This document shows, one piece after another, positions 708 to 19,855 of a stretch of DNA of 31,093 bases. The position numbers were made by a program, and so were the translations under genes. Positions within the stretch are counted from its first letter, which is position 1; each line of letters opens with the position of its first letter. This stretch comes from a virus: the IMG/VR virus record IMGVR_UViG_3300027782_000248, positions 1 to 31,093 of that record, one strand, 5' to 3'. The notes beneath the pieces were generated by a model that searched no databases, was not told the origin of the DNA, and saw nothing but the letters and a program-made list of their open reading frames with translations.

Positions 708-745
708 ATTTGCGTTATAGTCAATAACGCTATAAAATTAAGCAT
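708..745 (+). promoter_or_regulatory. Possible promoter and inverted repeat before the protease gene
   Basis: The 53-base gap holds TATAAA (731-736) only nine bases before the ATG, with a weak TTGCGT-like -35 at 710-715. Two mutually exclusive 6-bp stems are present: GCGTTA 712-717 with TAACGC 725-730, and TTATAG 715-720 with CTATAA 730-735. No Shine-Dalgarno sequence precedes the ATG at 746. A start near 743 would give an almost leaderless message. The -35 is poor, so this is tentative. Confidence 0.3.
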
Positions 746-2044
746 ATGAACATTGAAAAATCACTATGGTCTTCAACTGGCGATCAGATAGTTTTATCGG
801 TCCCCTTTACAAAAGTCAACCGTGAAAAGCGTACTGTCTCAGGTTTTGCAACACTAGACAACGTTGATCAAACTGGTGACGTCGTTACTATGGAAGCAAG
901 CGTAAAAGCTTTTGAAAATTTCCGTGGAAACATCCGTGAGATGCATGGATCAAATGCAGTAGGCAAAATGATTTCTTTTAAGCCAGAAACATACTACGAT
1001 GCAAAAGCACAAGAATTTTATAACGGAGTATATGTTGACGCATATGTTTCTAAAGGCGCTCAGGACACTTGGGAAAAAGTTCTAGACGGAACTCTAACAG
1101 GATTTTCAATCGGCGGAAAGATTATTGAATCAGACAACGAAGTTAATAAAGCAACTGGTAAGACTACAAGATTCATCAAAGATTATTCATTGATGGAACT
1201 TTCAATTGTCGACTCTCCAGCAAACGAGCTATGCAACATTCTTTCTATCTCTAAGATGAACGGCGAACTAATATTTAAAGGAATAGCAACTGAAGTAAAA
1301 GCAGAAAACATTTTTTATTGTGCAGACTCAGACTCAGTATTTATTTCAACAGAATCATCATATGATTCCCCAGTTACAGGAAAGCCTGCAACACTAATTG
1401 GATGGGTAGAGTCAAACGATGTTAACAAAGCAAAAGAAATAAACAAGATTCTTGATTTACATAAAAAATCAAGATTGTCCACGCCTGAAACACAAATTGC
1501 AAAACAGGCAGACATAGAAGGAGGTAATGAAGTGTCAGAAAACACAGAAAACACAGCAGTCGAAGAGACTGTAGTAGCAGACGCACCAGTTGTTGCTGAA
1601 GAAGCACCAGCAGTTGTAGAAGCACCAGTAGAAGACGCTCCTGCCGAAACTCTAGAAAAAGCAGCCGATGTATCAGAAGTTATGGTTGATGAACCTGATT
1701 TTGCTAAAATGCTTGGCGACCTTAAGGGATTTTTCTCAGAGACATTGAATAAGGCTTCAGAAGCAAATGCAGTACAGGTTTCAACAATTAAAGATACAGT
1801 TGAAACGTTCAGCAAGAGCGTAGATAGCCGAATTTCAGAGTTGGCAGAACAACACACAGCACTTTCAACAGCAGTTGAAAGCATCAAGAACACAATTGAT
1901 GGTGTACAAAAGCGTGTCGATGCAGTAGAATCAGAGACTGCAATTAAGAAGTCCTCGGACCTTGGCGGGTCTCAGGAAGTAATGATCAAAAAATCAAAGT
2001 GGAACGGTTCTTTCCTTGGTTCCGTGAACGAAATTTTTAACTAA
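746..2044 (+). CDS. Prohead maturation protease fused to scaffold domain
   Basis: A 432-residue protein. Residues 1-175 look like the phage prohead serine protease of the XkdF/HK97 kind: the histidine lies in EMHGSNAVGK (His67), and the candidate nucleophile region is ELSIVDSPAN (Ser153, followed by the conserved P-A-N). Residues about 265-310 are low-complexity and acidic (A, V, E, P). Residues about 315-400 are strongly helical with heptad-like spacing, as in delta/scaffold domains. In the family, scaffold directs capsid assembly and is then degraded by the protease. The ATG at 746 has no Shine-Dalgarno sequence; the adjacent TATAAA suggests a near-leaderless start. The position between portal and major capsid protein fits. 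The fusion is inferred from one unbroken frame, and the scaffold can probably also be made separately (see 1532). Confidence 0.85.
   Translation: MNIEKSLWSSTGDQIVLSVPFTKVNREKRTVSGFATLDNVDQTGDVVTMEASVKAFENFRGNIREMHGSNAVGKMISFKPETYYDAKAQEFYNGVYVDAYVSKGAQDTWEKVLDGTLTGFSIGGKIIESDNEVNKATGKTTRFIKDYSLMELSIVDSPANELCNILSISKMNGELIFKGIATEVKAENIFYCADSDSVFISTESSYDSPVTGKPATLIGWVESNDVNKAKEINKILDLHKKSRLSTPETQIAKQADIEGGNEVSENTENTAVEETVVADAPVVAEEAPAVVEAPVEDAPAETLEKAADVSEVMVDEPDFAKMLGDLKGFFSETLNKASEANAVQVSTIKDTVETFSKSVDSRISELAEQHTALSTAVESIKNTIDGVQKRVDAVESETAIKKSSDLGGSQEVMIKKSKWNGSFLGSVNEIFN
1518..1534 (+). promoter_or_regulatory. Internal ribosome binding site for free scaffold
   Basis: AAGGAGGT at 1518-1525 matches the full anti-Shine-Dalgarno complement and sits six bases before an in-frame GTG at 1532, inside the protease-scaffold gene. 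It is the best Shine-Dalgarno match noticed in the window and lies exactly at the boundary between protease and scaffold regions. Confidence 0.7.
1532..2044 (+). CDS. Scaffold protein from internal start (nested in protease gene)
   Basis: Translation from GTG 1532, in frame with the protease gene, would give a 170-residue protein identical to its C-terminus. It begins just after the protease domain, covers the acidic linker and the helical scaffold region, and ends with a basic and aromatic tail (KKSKWNGSF). Lambda uses the same logic: protease C and scaffold Nu3 share a frame and C-terminus, and the internal start supplies excess scaffold. The evidence seen is the perfect AAGGAGGT at six-base spacing and the domain boundary. 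Actual use of this start is inferred. Confidence 0.6.
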   Translation: MSENTENTAVEETVVADAPVVAEEAPAVVEAPVEDAPAETLEKAADVSEVMVDEPDFAKMLGDLKGFFSETLNKASEANAVQVSTIKDTVETFSKSVDSRISELAEQHTALSTAVESIKNTIDGVQKRVDAVESETAIKKSSDLGGSQEVMIKKSKWNGSFLGSVNEIFN

Positions 2045-2067
2045 AAAAAGGTAGGTGAAAATATAAA

Positions 2068-3123
2068 ATGAGTAATGAAAACTTAGAAAAGGCTATCGCT
2101 GCAGGTACAACTGCAACAGGTACCTTTGCAGGAGTTACAGGCGCAGCTAACACAAGTATCCACACAGGTGGTGCTTCTGGCAACGCAGGTCTCCTAAACG
2201 CAGAACAATCAGCTCGCTTCCTGGACTACATGTTCGACGCTACCGTAATCGGTAAGGTCGCCCGTACAGTTCGTATGAAGTCAGACACATCTGAGATTGA
2301 TCGTATGGCCGTTGGTGAGAAGCTTATGAAGCTTGCAACCGAAGGTGATAACGACGCTTCAAACAGCGCAGTAACTTTCTCAAAAATCTCTTTGACAACA
2401 AAGAAACTCCGCATGGACTGGGAGCTTTCAACAGAGTCTCTAGAAGATAATATCGAAGGTGCAGATCTTGAAGATCATATTGCACGTTTGATGGCAACAC
2501 AGGCAGGTAACGACATTGAAGACGTAATTCTAAATGGCGATACAACCCTAACAGGCGATGCCCTATACAAGTCATTTGATGGCGTTGTAAAGAAGGCAAA
2601 GGCTTCAGCACACGTAGTAGAAGCTGGTGGCTCAGGCGTAAGCCGTGAGTTGTTTAACAAAGCACTCAAAGCAATGCCACGTAAGTACAAGCAACGTCGT
2701 GCAGATCTTCGCTTCCTAGCAGGATCAAACCTGATTCAAGATTTCCTATATGCTAACAGCATTGGAACAAATCAGACAATTCCACAGGATATCGCATCAA
2801 GCTTAATCCGTGGAGCAACACCAGCTCTAGGTGGACCAGCAGGATATGTGGCACCATTCGCATTCGGTATTCCGATTGTTGAAGTACCACTTCTTAATGA
2901 GACACAGACTGGAACATATTCAGCTCCATCAGGATCACACGGTGACGTCCACTTGACATTCCCAAATAACGTAGTTATTGGTATCAAGCGTGATGTAACT
3001 GTTTACCGCTTCTTCGAGCCACGTAAGGACTCAATCGAGTACACAATGTATACTCGTGTTGGCGTTCAAATCGAGCAGGCAAACGCCTGGGTAGTAGTGA
3101 AAAACGTTAAGGTTGCTTCCTAA
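2068..3123 (+). CDS. Major capsid protein (HK97 fold)
   Basis: A 351-residue protein immediately downstream of the protease/scaffold gene, with a Gly/Ala/Thr-rich N-terminus. Features of HK97-type capsid proteins include the segment with DWELSTESLED (about residues 113-125), an 'IEDVILNGD' stretch at the end of the spine-helix region, and a C-terminal strand region with AFGIPIVEVP and YRFFEPRKD. It forms the icosahedral shell. All 16 arginine codons are CGT or CGC, unlike most neighbours, as expected for the most highly translated phage gene. A purine-rich GGTAGGTG lies about ten bases before the ATG. A terminator follows the stop codon. No separate decoration protein was identified. Confidence 0.9.
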   Translation: MSNENLEKAIAAGTTATGTFAGVTGAANTSIHTGGASGNAGLLNAEQSARFLDYMFDATVIGKVARTVRMKSDTSEIDRMAVGEKLMKLATEGDNDASNSAVTFSKISLTTKKLRMDWELSTESLEDNIEGADLEDHIARLMATQAGNDIEDVILNGDTTLTGDALYKSFDGVVKKAKASAHVVEAGGSGVSRELFNKALKAMPRKYKQRRADLRFLAGSNLIQDFLYANSIGTNQTIPQDIASSLIRGATPALGGPAGYVAPFAFGIPIVEVPLLNETQTGTYSAPSGSHGDVHLTFPNNVVIGIKRDVTVYRFFEPRKDSIEYTMYTRVGVQIEQANAWVVVKNVKVAS

Positions 3124-3144
3124 TTATAGGATTTAACTAGCTGG

Positions 3145-3174
3145 AAAGGCCCCTAATTAATTTTAGGGGCTTTT
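3145..3174 (+). terminator. Rho-independent terminator after the major capsid gene
   Basis: GCCCCTAA (3149-3156) pairs with TTAGGGGC (3163-3170). The stem is extended by AAAG 3145-3148 against TTTT 3171-3174 with one G-U pair, giving about 12 bp around a 6-base loop. A T-rich stretch (TTTTCATTTT) follows. It lies 21 bases past the capsid stop codon. Confidence 0.82.
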
Positions 3175-3190
3175 CATTTTAATTTAGTAA

Positions 3191-3199
3191 TGCTATAAT
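3191..3199 (+). promoter_or_regulatory. Promoter with extended -10 (TGCTATAAT)
   Basis: TGCTATAAT at 3191-3199 is a perfect extended -10 box. The -35 region (TTTCAT at 3172-3177, 16-base spacing) is weak, as is usual for extended -10 promoters. The predicted start near 3206 leaves a short leader containing AGGAG before the ATG at 3227. It lies directly after the capsid terminator, restarting transcription of the connector genes. Confidence 0.65.
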
Positions 3200-3226: not shown

Positions 3227-3628
3227 ATGTCATTTGAGACATTGAAAGTAGCAGAGTTGAAAAAGATTGCAGAAGATTTTGCAGTCGATGCCGACGGTCT
3301 AAAAAACAAAGCCGACATCATTGCCGCCCTTGCAGAAGAGGGAGTAACTTGGTCTGTATATAACAGCACTATTAAAAAGATTGAAGAAGAGACGGAAGAA
3401 ATGTCAATCGAAGTATTGCCAAAGTTTGATCCAAAAGCAGCACAGCCAGAGGACACAGTATTAGTAAGAATGACCAGAGAGAACTTTAGATATGATATTA
3501 TGGGAATTACGTTCACAAAAGAACACCCATTTGTAGCAGTATCTGAAGATGTAGCACAAGAAATTTTTGATAAGGAGGAGGGCTTTAGATTAGCGTCTCC
3601 TAGAGAAGTACAGGAGTACTACAGTTAA
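3227..3628 (+). CDS. Small head protein with N-terminal SAP/HeH-like domain
   Basis: A 133-residue protein between the capsid and connector genes. Residues 4-40 (TLKVAELKKIAEDF..., a helix-extended loop-helix rhythm, ...KADIIAALAEEG) match the pattern of SAP/HeH/LEM-like DNA- or protein-binding motifs often found at the ends of phage head proteins. An acidic linker (EEETEE) follows, then a compact domain with RYDIMGITFTKEHPF and a terminal YY. An AGGAG sits about six bases upstream of the ATG. The role is unproven: possibilities are a capsid-associated or minor head protein, or a connector accessory. The family assignment is by pattern only. Confidence 0.6.
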   Translation: MSFETLKVAELKKIAEDFAVDADGLKNKADIIAALAEEGVTWSVYNSTIKKIEEETEEMSIEVLPKFDPKAAQPEDTVLVRMTRENFRYDIMGITFTKEHPFVAVSEDVAQEIFDKEEGFRLASPREVQEYYS

Positions 3629-16855: not shown

Positions 16856-18534
16856 GTCCAATAATGCCTGAATGGTACATGGTAGATGGTACTGGATATA
16901 CTACGCCCACTGGCTCTTTATTAGCAATATCATGGGTAAATGCAGTTCCAATTTCATCAACATCAGCAGTAATAAGTTTTAACACAACTTCAGGCACTCC
17001 AGGAAGTTATGGCGGATCAGCAGCAGGAACTAGTTCCTTTAATGATCCAGATTTTGTTATAAATACAAATACTGGTTCTTATACTGCAACTAATCTTACT
17101 CCAGGAGTAACTTATACAATAAGACTTAGAGCATATTCTGGAGCTAATCAAACTGGCACATACGGAGAATACAAGTATGCGTATTTGTCTATGCCAAAAG
17201 TTGCAAATGTTGGAACTATGACTTCTACGACAAGTGCCACAACAACTCCGTCAGCTGGATCATCGTACGCTAATTCTGGGAATAGGTCAGTTCAAAGATC
17301 ATTATTTAGAATTTCAACGGACAAGGATGCCAATAAGTATTATATCTCTGTAAAAGATACTAATATTTCTACGGGATATAAGAGATATATATTTGGTTCA
17401 GGCATAATTTTTGGAAGCACCTTAACAAAGCCAGAATCTAGGGGCGGCATAGGATTTTTTGTAAGTAATAGCGGTATGAGTGGGTATTTTGTAGAAATAC
17501 AAACAGATGCAAGCAATAAAGACTTAAAAGATAAAACTCTTAAGATATACAAAGTTGTAGGGGGTCAAAGAGTTTATCTTCCAGATTCACAAGATACTAA
17601 TTCTGGAAAGTTATACGGCGGAGTTATTGCAGCTACACAGTATAAACTAGACGTAGACGTTGTGGTAGATACAGAAAAAACAACAATAAATGTTTATGTT
17701 AATAGTTTTAAGGTAACAGCAATTGATAAAAAGGTGACTGGCTCAACAGACCCCTTGTCTAATCCAATATCTCCAACTTCGCAGATAGGTATTTTTGCAA
17801 GCATCGGGGAAGTAAACTTTGACTATGTATATGCAAGTCCAATAAATAATAATCAAGATGGAATTGCCGAAGTAAAGGGTTTATATCAAGGACAGTATTC
17901 TGGCTCGACATTAAACTTTTTGTACGGAGAAAAGATTGCTCAAAACTTTAATAGTCCAGAAACTAAGGTCGGATTCTTAGAAGAGTTTGGAACGGTTGCA
18001 AGAGAACTAAGATACGTTAAGGCTAATTTTGCACAATCAGCAGCATTCCCTTTATATGCAACAACAGGAGTAAATAAATTTGCAACAGTCCTAGGCTCAA
18101 AATTTTCGAATCACGGGGCAGAGATATTTGTATTAAATAATGCAGGCACATTTATTCCTTTATCTTACGGAACAGAACAAAAGTTCTGGGTTGTTGGAAA
18201 TTATGTTGACAATGGCTCTCAACATGAGTATACTGAAACAACTACAAATGAATATACAATGGTTGAGCCAGCAACATTCCAGTCCAATTGGATACAGTCA
18301 GAATCGGATGCTAAAGCTCTGTTTACTTGGATAAAAAATCAGTGGTCAAGGCAACAGCAATCTATTGAGATGGAAGTATTTGGAAATCCAGTAATTGAGG
18401 TAGGGGACATAATTACAGTTAATTATCCTGAAAACAATTTGAACGGAACTCAGAAATTTTTAGTAACAAATGTAGGCGTATCGTTTGAAGAAGGGGTGAG
18501 TACTACTATTACAGCTAGATCTATTTATAGTTGA
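16852..18534 (+). CDS. Minor tail protein with FnIII and LamG-like modules and a hub C-terminus
   Basis: A 560-residue protein. I chose ATG 16852, which overlaps the upstream stop as ATGA; an upstream TTG at 16825 is possible but would add residues inside the previous gene. Residues about 15-110 are a fibronectin type III-like module (ending TNLTPGVTYTIRLRAYSG). About 145-335 is a concanavalin/laminin-G-like sandwich (GGIGFFVSNSGMSGYFVEI, ending VNFDYVYASP). The last 85 residues (DAKALFTWIKNQWSRQQQ, then NPVIEVGDIITVNYP) are the typical closing domain of siphovirus hub proteins. Surface-binding modules thus appear inserted between hub pieces spread over two genes. Confidence 0.6.
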   Translation: MSPIMPEWYMVDGTGYTTPTGSLLAISWVNAVPISSTSAVISFNTTSGTPGSYGGSAAGTSSFNDPDFVINTNTGSYTATNLTPGVTYTIRLRAYSGANQTGTYGEYKYAYLSMPKVANVGTMTSTTSATTTPSAGSSYANSGNRSVQRSLFRISTDKDANKYYISVKDTNISTGYKRYIFGSGIIFGSTLTKPESRGGIGFFVSNSGMSGYFVEIQTDASNKDLKDKTLKIYKVVGGQRVYLPDSQDTNSGKLYGGVIAATQYKLDVDVVVDTEKTTINVYVNSFKVTAIDKKVTGSTDPLSNPISPTSQIGIFASIGEVNFDYVYASPINNNQDGIAEVKGLYQGQYSGSTLNFLYGEKIAQNFNSPETKVGFLEEFGTVARELRYVKANFAQSAAFPLYATTGVNKFATVLGSKFSNHGAEIFVLNNAGTFIPLSYGTEQKFWVVGNYVDNGSQHEYTETTTNEYTMVEPATFQSNWIQSESDAKALFTWIKNQWSRQQQSIEMEVFGNPVIEVGDIITVNYPENNLNGTQKFLVTNVGVSFEEGVSTTITARSIYS

Positions 18535-18539
18535 CCAAA

Positions 18540-18548
18540 TGGTATAAT
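18540..18548 (+). promoter_or_regulatory. Promoter with extended -10 (TGGTATAAT), probably leaderless
   Basis: TGGTATAAT at 18540-18548 lies in the 20-base gap after the stop at 18534. No -35 is seen. With the usual 6-7 base distance, transcription would begin at or beside the A of the ATG at 18555, giving a leaderless message; no Shine-Dalgarno sequence is available for that ATG. Confidence 0.55.
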
Positions 18549-18554
18549 AAAAAT

Positions 18555-18944
18555 ATGGCTAAAAAGAACCCAAGAATTTCAAGATCTGGTGTTACTACTA
18601 CTGGAAGATTCCCTCTTTATTCAAACTCCCCAGAAGTAACAGACATGGATCCCGCCCTCATATATTTGAGAAGGGGAAATTCTTTATCTAGTCTTTATCT
18701 TACTGGAAGCGATTTTTCCGAAGATGATATCGGAGACGATTCTGGAGGAGAAATTGGTGATGAAGATGGCAATGGCGAAGAAGATACTAGAAAAGGTATT
18801 CCTTCTAAGTCAGATATATCCATTGTTTCTCAAACAATTGAAGTAGACATATTAGGGCAACCTACAGTAACTGTTGTTTTTAAAATTAAAAACTCTAGCG
18901 GAGAAACTTTAAAGGGAATGAATGCGAGGATTGAAGTACTATGA
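18555..18944 (+). CDS. Unknown tail-module protein with acidic linker
   Basis: A 129-residue protein of no recognised family, between the hub and minor tail genes. The N-terminus is basic (AKKNPRISRSG), the middle is a strongly acidic, Gly-rich stretch (SEDDIGDDSGGE then more D/E), and the last 50 residues look like beta strands (TVTVVFKIKNSSGETL), possibly a small Ig-like fold. I chose ATG 18555 over TTG 18531 because neither has a Shine-Dalgarno sequence but the ATG is placed for a leaderless start. It overlaps the next gene by ATGA. It may connect hub to fibres. Confidence 0.55.
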   Translation: MAKKNPRISRSGVTTTGRFPLYSNSPEVTDMDPALIYLRRGNSLSSLYLTGSDFSEDDIGDDSGGEIGDEDGNGEEDTRKGIPSKSDISIVSQTIEVDILGQPTVTVVFKIKNSSGETLKGMNARIEVL

Positions 18945-19855
18945 TAACTAGATTTGGTAAAAGATTCTTGGCTGGTTACCTGGCTAACACAACAGATTTT
19001 AGCAATAAAGAACTAGCATTTGGTATTGGATCAACCACTCCAAACACAAAGGGTAACGACACAAAACTTGAATTTGAGTTTTATAGAATTCCAGTTTTAT
19101 ATGGAAGCGTTGATATTGCTCAAACTGGAGTAGACGGAGACGGAGATCCAGTATTTTCATATACTGCTATTTTCCTAGGAACCATTCCACAGGATGTTGC
19201 TGGAGTTATATCAGAAGTAGCACTATATCCTGGATCAAGAACTTCAAAGAATAGTTTTGATAGCAAATTTATTACATCGTTTGAGAACAATCTTTTATGG
19301 AAAGACTCATCTGGAAATAATCCACAACTTCAATTAAATACTACATCGCTAGTTTCTAAAATTGGAGAAAATATGGTTTATATTCAGTCTCCAGCCTCTA
19401 CTGCAAAAGAATATAAAACAACACTTACAACTTTAGATCTTTCTGGATATAGCGTAAATGATAGTTTAGCAATTGCTTATAAAAAAGCAGACAACAATGT
19501 TTCAAAAATAAGAGTTAAGTTTTATAGCTCTTCAACTCAATATTGTTATGCAGACTTTACTCCAGCTTCTGGTACTGGAGATAGAATACAGTCTATATTA
19601 TTAAATGATTTATTCTCTAATACATCAACAACTCCACCAGACTTTACTAATATAACAAATTTAGGAGTTGAGGTAACTGCAAATTCAAGCGGAACTACAA
19701 CGGTGTACTTTGACGGTATTAGAATAAACGATGAAGATACCTTTGACCCAACTTATGGAATGATTAGTAGATCTGTTTTAACTGGAGGAAATATAATTAC
19801 TAAAACTTCTGGTAGACAGGTAGATATTGAATATAAGTTACAGTTAGGATTCTAA
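18941..19855 (+). CDS. Minor tail protein (beta-rich, with carbohydrate-binding-like middle)
   Basis: A 304-residue protein beginning in an ATGA overlap. The first 100 residues (RFGKRFLAGYLANTTDFSN, then LAFGIGSTTP, later GVISEVALYP) match a minor tail protein type I associate with actinophage tail operons. Residues about 140-250 form a jelly-roll-like segment (LDLSGYSVNDSLAIAYKK, then VTANSSGTTTVYFDGIRI), the pattern of a galactose-binding/CBM-like domain. The role is probably structural or receptor-binding at the tail tip. No enzyme motif is seen. It ends in TAATG with the large fibre gene. Confidence 0.6.
   Translation: MITRFGKRFLAGYLANTTDFSNKELAFGIGSTTPNTKGNDTKLEFEFYRIPVLYGSVDIAQTGVDGDGDPVFSYTAIFLGTIPQDVAGVISEVALYPGSRTSKNSFDSKFITSFENNLLWKDSSGNNPQLQLNTTSLVSKIGENMVYIQSPASTAKEYKTTLTTLDLSGYSVNDSLAIAYKKADNNVSKIRVKFYSSSTQYCYADFTPASGTGDRIQSILLNDLFSNTSTTPPDFTNITNLGVEVTANSSGTTTVYFDGIRINDEDTFDPTYGMISRSVLTGGNIITKTSGRQVDIEYKLQLGF

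Follow-up and report, generated by a model that had tools for sequence, protein, structure and literature searches.

The window analysed here, i.e., the whole stretch of 31,093 nucleotides from a viral record (IMGVR_UViG_3300027782_000248) of a freshwater phage, begins with the end of a portal gene, which is followed by a protease gene (746-2044), a capsid gene (2068-3123) and further genes (Table 1). The product of the protease gene gives an above-cutoff match to Pfam Peptidase_S78 (2.2e-5) and matches the head maturation protease family PHROG 9427 (1.6e-125); an S49/ClpP-like domain is absent from it, the Pfam search giving S78 and the XkdF-type S78_2 only. In the AlphaFold2 (AF2) model (mean pLDDT 67) residues 23-243 adopt a mostly confident fold, residues 246-318 are essentially disordered and residues 319-401 form coiled-coil helices. 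The S78 protease domain occupies approximately residues 23-166, and the last folded N-terminal element ends at residue 243. Two positions of this domain, H67 and S121, do not vary among 65 sequences and, by comparison with the family, presumably constitute the catalytic pair. Structure matches in BFVD include many prohead proteases; a PDB fold search with the protein returned nothing significant, and a sequence search of solved structures returned generic coiled coils only.

Table 1. Features of the protease, scaffold and capsid region of the window.
Feature	Position	Strand	Details
Promoter-like element of the protease unit	709-738	+	-35-like TTGCGT 710-715, 17-bp spacer, -10 TAAAAT 733-738
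Prohead (capsid maturation) protease-scaffold fusion, 432 aa	746-2044	+	Pfam Peptidase_S78 2.2e-5, PHROG 9427
N-terminal fold made up of the S78 protease domain, a small second domain and a helix	812-1474	+	AF2 model, invariant columns, BFVD
Tract without synonymous change, codons 252-264	1499-1537	+	64 distinct close relatives, parsimony on tree and codon alignment; holds SD and internal start
Shine-Dalgarno (SD) sequence AAGGAGGT of the putative nested gene	1518-1525	+	within codons GAA-GGA-GGT (EGG); conserved, in other frames in distant relatives
Putative nested scaffold gene, GTG start (codon 263)	1532-2044	+	170 aa, 18.1 kDa, pI 4.3, net charge -18
Predicted coiled-coil helices of the scaffold part, residues 319-338 and 342-401	1700-1948	+	AF2/DSSP; PDB profile matches are generic coiled coils
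SD sequence AGGTAGGTGA of the capsid gene	2049-2058	+	-8.2 kcal/mol
Major capsid protein, 351 aa	2068-3123	+	Pfam Phage_capsid residues 42-210, PHROG 1623
Intrinsic terminator closing the protease/scaffold/capsid unit (predicted)	3144-3175	+	13-pair stem (6 GC), T-rich tail

Bases 1516-1534 of the window read AG AAGGAGGT AATGAA GTG. The first-pass annotation of this DNA had claimed that a perfect SD sequence lies six bases ahead of an in-frame GTG, and this was confirmed, since a 6-nt spacer separates AAGGAGGT from the GTG at 1532, which is codon 263 of the 432-aa ORF. It had also placed this start exactly at the boundary between the protease and the scaffold, which holds in part: in the AF2 model codon 263 falls in the disordered linker between the protease and the coiled coil, but not at the onset of the coil itself. 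The octamer AAGGAGGT occurs once in the window, where 1.04 copies are expected by chance on both strands, so by itself it proves nothing and has to be judged by its place and conservation; what is above chance is its position. When SD strength was expressed as the predicted pairing energy with the 3' end of 16S rRNA, the internal SD (-13.5 kcal/mol) was the strongest of 28 scored gene starts of the window, the next one reaching -11.9. Masking of the internal SD by RNA structure was considered and rejected, because the predicted fold leaves most of the SD unpaired (z -1.9). An out-of-frame ATG at 1527 was likewise rejected as the true start, since it opens a 15-codon ORF and is lost in relatives, which carry GGTAAA or GGTAGT variants.

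The protease gene has many close relatives among viral metagenome contigs, and the close-relative set comprised 64 distinct coding sequences with 78-100% protein identity. In the codon alignment GAA GGA GGT is unchanged in all 64 of them, with zero synonymous changes, and parsimony places the lowest synonymous-change count of the gene in codons 252-264. Well-conserved glycine codons of the gene underwent on average 6.3 synonymous changes, compared with none for both SD glycines; two further glycine codons near the 3' end of the gene likewise show none. Synonymous loss of the motif in close relatives, which had been named beforehand as the observation that would speak against a nested start, was looked for and the opposite was found, and the same counts are in line with the proposal that the glycine codons GGA GGT double as a ribosome binding site. 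The GTG at codon 263 is replaced by ATG in L056, L073, L076 and L080 and is otherwise kept, except in L003, the sole indel-bearing copy, in which a small indel shifts it one codon downstream. The junction of L003 carries a one-base insertion, compensated a few bases on, that alters the distance between SD and start and could be a sequencing error. A GCCTG...CAGGC hairpin (1480-1510) lies just 5' of the internal SD and is predicted in many close relatives, though not consistently; it may account for part of the synonymous constraint at codons 247-255. One may ask if the codons for Glu-Gly-Gly simply resemble an SD by chance and are conserved for the peptide alone, given that EGG is encoded in many relatives and that about one octamer per window is to be expected. 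This explanation is hardly credible and was rejected, both on the synonymous counts and because other lineages read these nucleotides as KEE, KEV, KEA or KED.

The wider comparison comprised 72 dereplicated genes of freshwater, Streptomyces and Rhodococcus phages, drawn from 269 sequences carrying the protease gene. A site was counted when an SD of at least 6 matching bases and an in-frame start lay inside the junction interval, and 200 synonymous-codon shuffles served as the null. Such a site is present in 70 of the 72 genes, while the shuffled sets average 14.2 and never exceed 24; without dereplication it was found in 222 of 225 unique genes. Outside the junction the same genes hold 3 sites versus 10.5 expected from the shuffles, i.e., SD and start combinations are rarer there. 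Imperfect versions, missed by the first scan, occur in L130 as the G-rich variant AAGGGGGTG and in Rhodococcus phages Francesca and NiceHouse as AGGAG with N11 spacing. The SD encodes E/K-G-G in some lineages and K-E-[E/V/A/D] in others; two main reading frames are involved and the tree shows 3 frame changes, and this re-encoding argues that selection acts on the nucleotide signal and its spacing, not on amino acids. Conservation of the SD and start beyond amino-acid need, which the first-pass annotation had suggested looking for, is found in distant homologues too. The internal start codon has itself switched among ATG, GTG and TTG, with about 11 parsimony changes on the tree, and the start codon 3-12 nt past the SD, mostly 7 or 8 nt after GGAGG, is in the frame of the gene in 69 of 71 genes. 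A purine-rich motif located at the domain boundary in every homologue might also serve as an SD-like pause that aids co-translational folding, with no second protein produced. However, a pause needs no start codon, whereas in-frame ATG, GTG or TTG codons, whose background frequency is 3%, stand at initiation spacing in nearly every gene and replace one another across the tree, which makes a mere pause very unlikely.

The predicted product of the internal start has no C, W or Y until its last 15 residues, and the acidic tail is present in every member, with a net charge from -18 to -42 across 72 members. The C-terminal part is acidic, helical or coiled and separate from the capsid protein, which points to a scaffold function. 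At the very C-terminus (residues 400-424) an invariant K-S pair and a W-x-G-x-F motif were found in 65 sequences, and this region is a candidate for both a protease cleavage site and a capsid-binding tail. The HK97-type delta domain, i.e., the N-terminal extension of ~100 residues, is absent from the capsid protein, in which the Phage_capsid match begins at residue 42 of 351; therefore, a separate scaffold is to be expected. In the annotated relatives examined, the neighbourhood of the head genes contains no gene annotated as a separate scaffold, nor does the 42-kb stretch of Coruscant that covers its head and tail genes, and for the matching phages with an examined head region the nested gene points to one. 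The scaffold might instead be freed from the full-length protein by self-cleavage of the protease, so that the internal start would add little. The P2-type protease-scaffold is encoded by one gene and its scaffold may be released from one chain (PMC8508860, PMC10219371), and in the present AF2 model the linker (residues 244-318) is disordered and could be cleaved. Yet self-cleavage leaves unexplained the conservation of a near-perfect SD and of a start, as well as the re-encoding in different frames, and as a replacement for internal initiation it is improbable; self-cleavage and internal initiation could both operate.

The protease's own ATG is not preceded by an SD (dG +0.8 in the window); over 70 genes its pairing energy averages -1.8 kcal/mol versus -12.4 kcal/mol for the internal start, which is the stronger one in 70 of 70 genes, and the mean at the downstream capsid gene start is -9.2 kcal/mol in the relatives. 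In the promoter-like element TATAAA (731-736) overlaps the -10 TAAAAT, and seven bases separate the -10 from the ATG at 746. A generic sigma-70 scan of the window did not flag this element, since its -35 deviates from TTGACA, and the case for a putative promoter is one of conservation. All 17 distinct upstream sequences from close relatives share the -35 core TTTGC together with the -10/discriminator. A -10 box (at least 5/6 match) ending 6-10 nt before the protease ATG was found in 59 of 68 dereplicated genes, compared with 8.0 in shuffled sequences, and the exact TATAAT precedes the ATG in 31 of these 68 genes versus 0.8 in the shuffles. From this, transcription is predicted to begin on the ATG at 746 or no more than one or two bases away, giving a leaderless protease mRNA; the protease start displays the arrangement of leaderless mRNAs, as it lacks an SD and its -10 box lies about 6-10 nt ahead. 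The TATAAT boxes at 3227, 7293 and 27596, also close to gene starts of the window, are followed by leaders with an SD.

An internal promoter could, in principle, provide the scaffold with its own transcript. In the herpesvirus UL26/UL26.5 pair the two products share the C-terminus and the scaffold is made from its own transcript, so that the same protein logic is achieved. However, over 71 genes no distance upstream of the internal start shows an enrichment of TATAAT-like hexamers, whereas the gene's own start does, and a separate scaffold transcript is highly improbable. At the other end of the unit, a terminator-like hairpin is found at the same place after the capsid gene in 45 of 59 relatives. 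In the window (3144-3199) the strong terminator is followed directly by a TATAAT promoter for the next gene, and a TATAAT about 60-80 nt past the capsid stop recurs in most relatives; since both elements recur after the capsid gene, the late genes seem to be split into short transcription units.

The gene at 746-2044 thus very probably makes both the protease and an SD-led nested scaffold, from one mRNA. Initiation at the ATG at 746 would yield the 432-aa protease with a C-terminal scaffold tail, and separate SD-led initiation at the GTG at 1532 would yield the 170-aa acidic coiled-coil scaffold ending at the same C-terminus. Two products of this kind, postulated in the first-pass annotation after the example of lambda C/Nu3, are supported by the conserved internal SD and start (70/72) and by their linker position. 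The scaffold chains would co-assemble with the capsid protein via the common C-terminal tail, and the full-length chains, being fewer, would carry the protease into the procapsid, where it would remove the scaffold. The full-length start, with no SD and a -10 box 6-10 nt before the ATG, would be leaderless, while strong SDs on this transcript would serve the scaffold and the capsid protein, and the transcript would end at the terminator past the capsid gene. Sequence and comparative evidence support the conserved site of internal initiation, the arrangement of domains, the promoter-like element before the gene and the terminator, and we infer that the internal site is used, that its product is the scaffold, that there is more scaffold than protease and that the protease is translated from a leaderless mRNA.

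The predicted leaderless/SD layout is conserved across freshwater phages and phages of Streptomyces and Rhodococcus, and we lean towards the idea that one capsid transcript with two initiation modes, leaderless for the protease and SD-led for the scaffold, sets the dosage of both proteins. A leaderless upstream start bears on how the protease/scaffold ratio would be set. Leaderless translation in mycobacteria was found comparably robust to leadered translation (PMC4633059), so a start lacking an SD need not in itself mean less protease, and a later paper left both readings on the output of leaderless initiation possible (PMC7148126). If the protease start is leaderless, it would offer a natural test case in Actinobacteria for comparing leaderless with SD-led initiation on a single mRNA.

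The principle of a scaffold nested in a protease gene is already known from lambda C/Nu3 and Mu I/Z, and what is more novel here is the possible split between leaderless and SD-led initiation; literature searches revealed no report of a nested scaffold for this protease family of actinophages and freshwater phages. The features of such nested pairs, an N-terminal capsid protease and a conserved internal SD and start, are found here, and the S49 family of lambda C and scaffolding by an HK97-type delta domain are not. As in the present gene, the scaffold of lambda overlaps the protease in frame, with a common C-terminus and directly upstream of the capsid genes (Shaw and Murialdo, 1980, as cited in PMC8508860). 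However, PMC10695390 lists lambda C among the S49-family proteases, whereas the present protein matches S78, and finding the nested layout in an S78-type protease suggests that it may have evolved on more than one occasion. In Mu and Mu-like phages (PaMx73, KS10, BcepMu) the scaffold is translated from an SD and start lying in frame within the protease gene, just as proposed here. The scaffold of PaMx73 is described as starting with a Val codon whose relative position matches that in Mu (PMC4378225), and the KS10 annotation lists the gp28 protease at 18120-19322 and the gp29 scaffold at 18876-19322, in frame (PMC2628397). These phages differ in lineage and hosts, and the relevant parts of the reports on them describe no dedicated promoter abutting the protease start. 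The HK97 gp4/gp5 locus also has a protease gene directly before an HK97-fold capsid gene, but according to PMC8508860 HK97 uses the first ~102 residues of its capsid protein as the scaffold, whereas here the scaffold would reside on the protease and the capsid protein is without such an extension.

Named relatives are found among actinophages, and 136 sequenced Streptomyces and Rhodococcus phage records match the protease gene. The capsid maturation proteases of Coruscant, Mildred21, Wakanda and Trina (Stanwilliamsviridae/Trinavirus) are true homologues of the present protein: the Streptomyces phage (Stanwilliamsviridae) homologues show about 41-46% identity over most of the protein, and in Trina and other Rhodococcus phages the match is largely limited to the protease part. 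These phages have the same portal-protease-capsid order and the same internal SD and start, and in the records compared the gene is annotated as protease only, with the nested gene unannotated. At residues about 186-222 the Streptomyces relatives (L082-L092) carry zinc-ribbon-like C..C pairs (ENVFWC...CxxC), of which one cysteine is left in the window protein, and Rhodococcus phage NiceHouse is without the whole zinc-ribbon-like insert, yet has the internal SD and an ATG.
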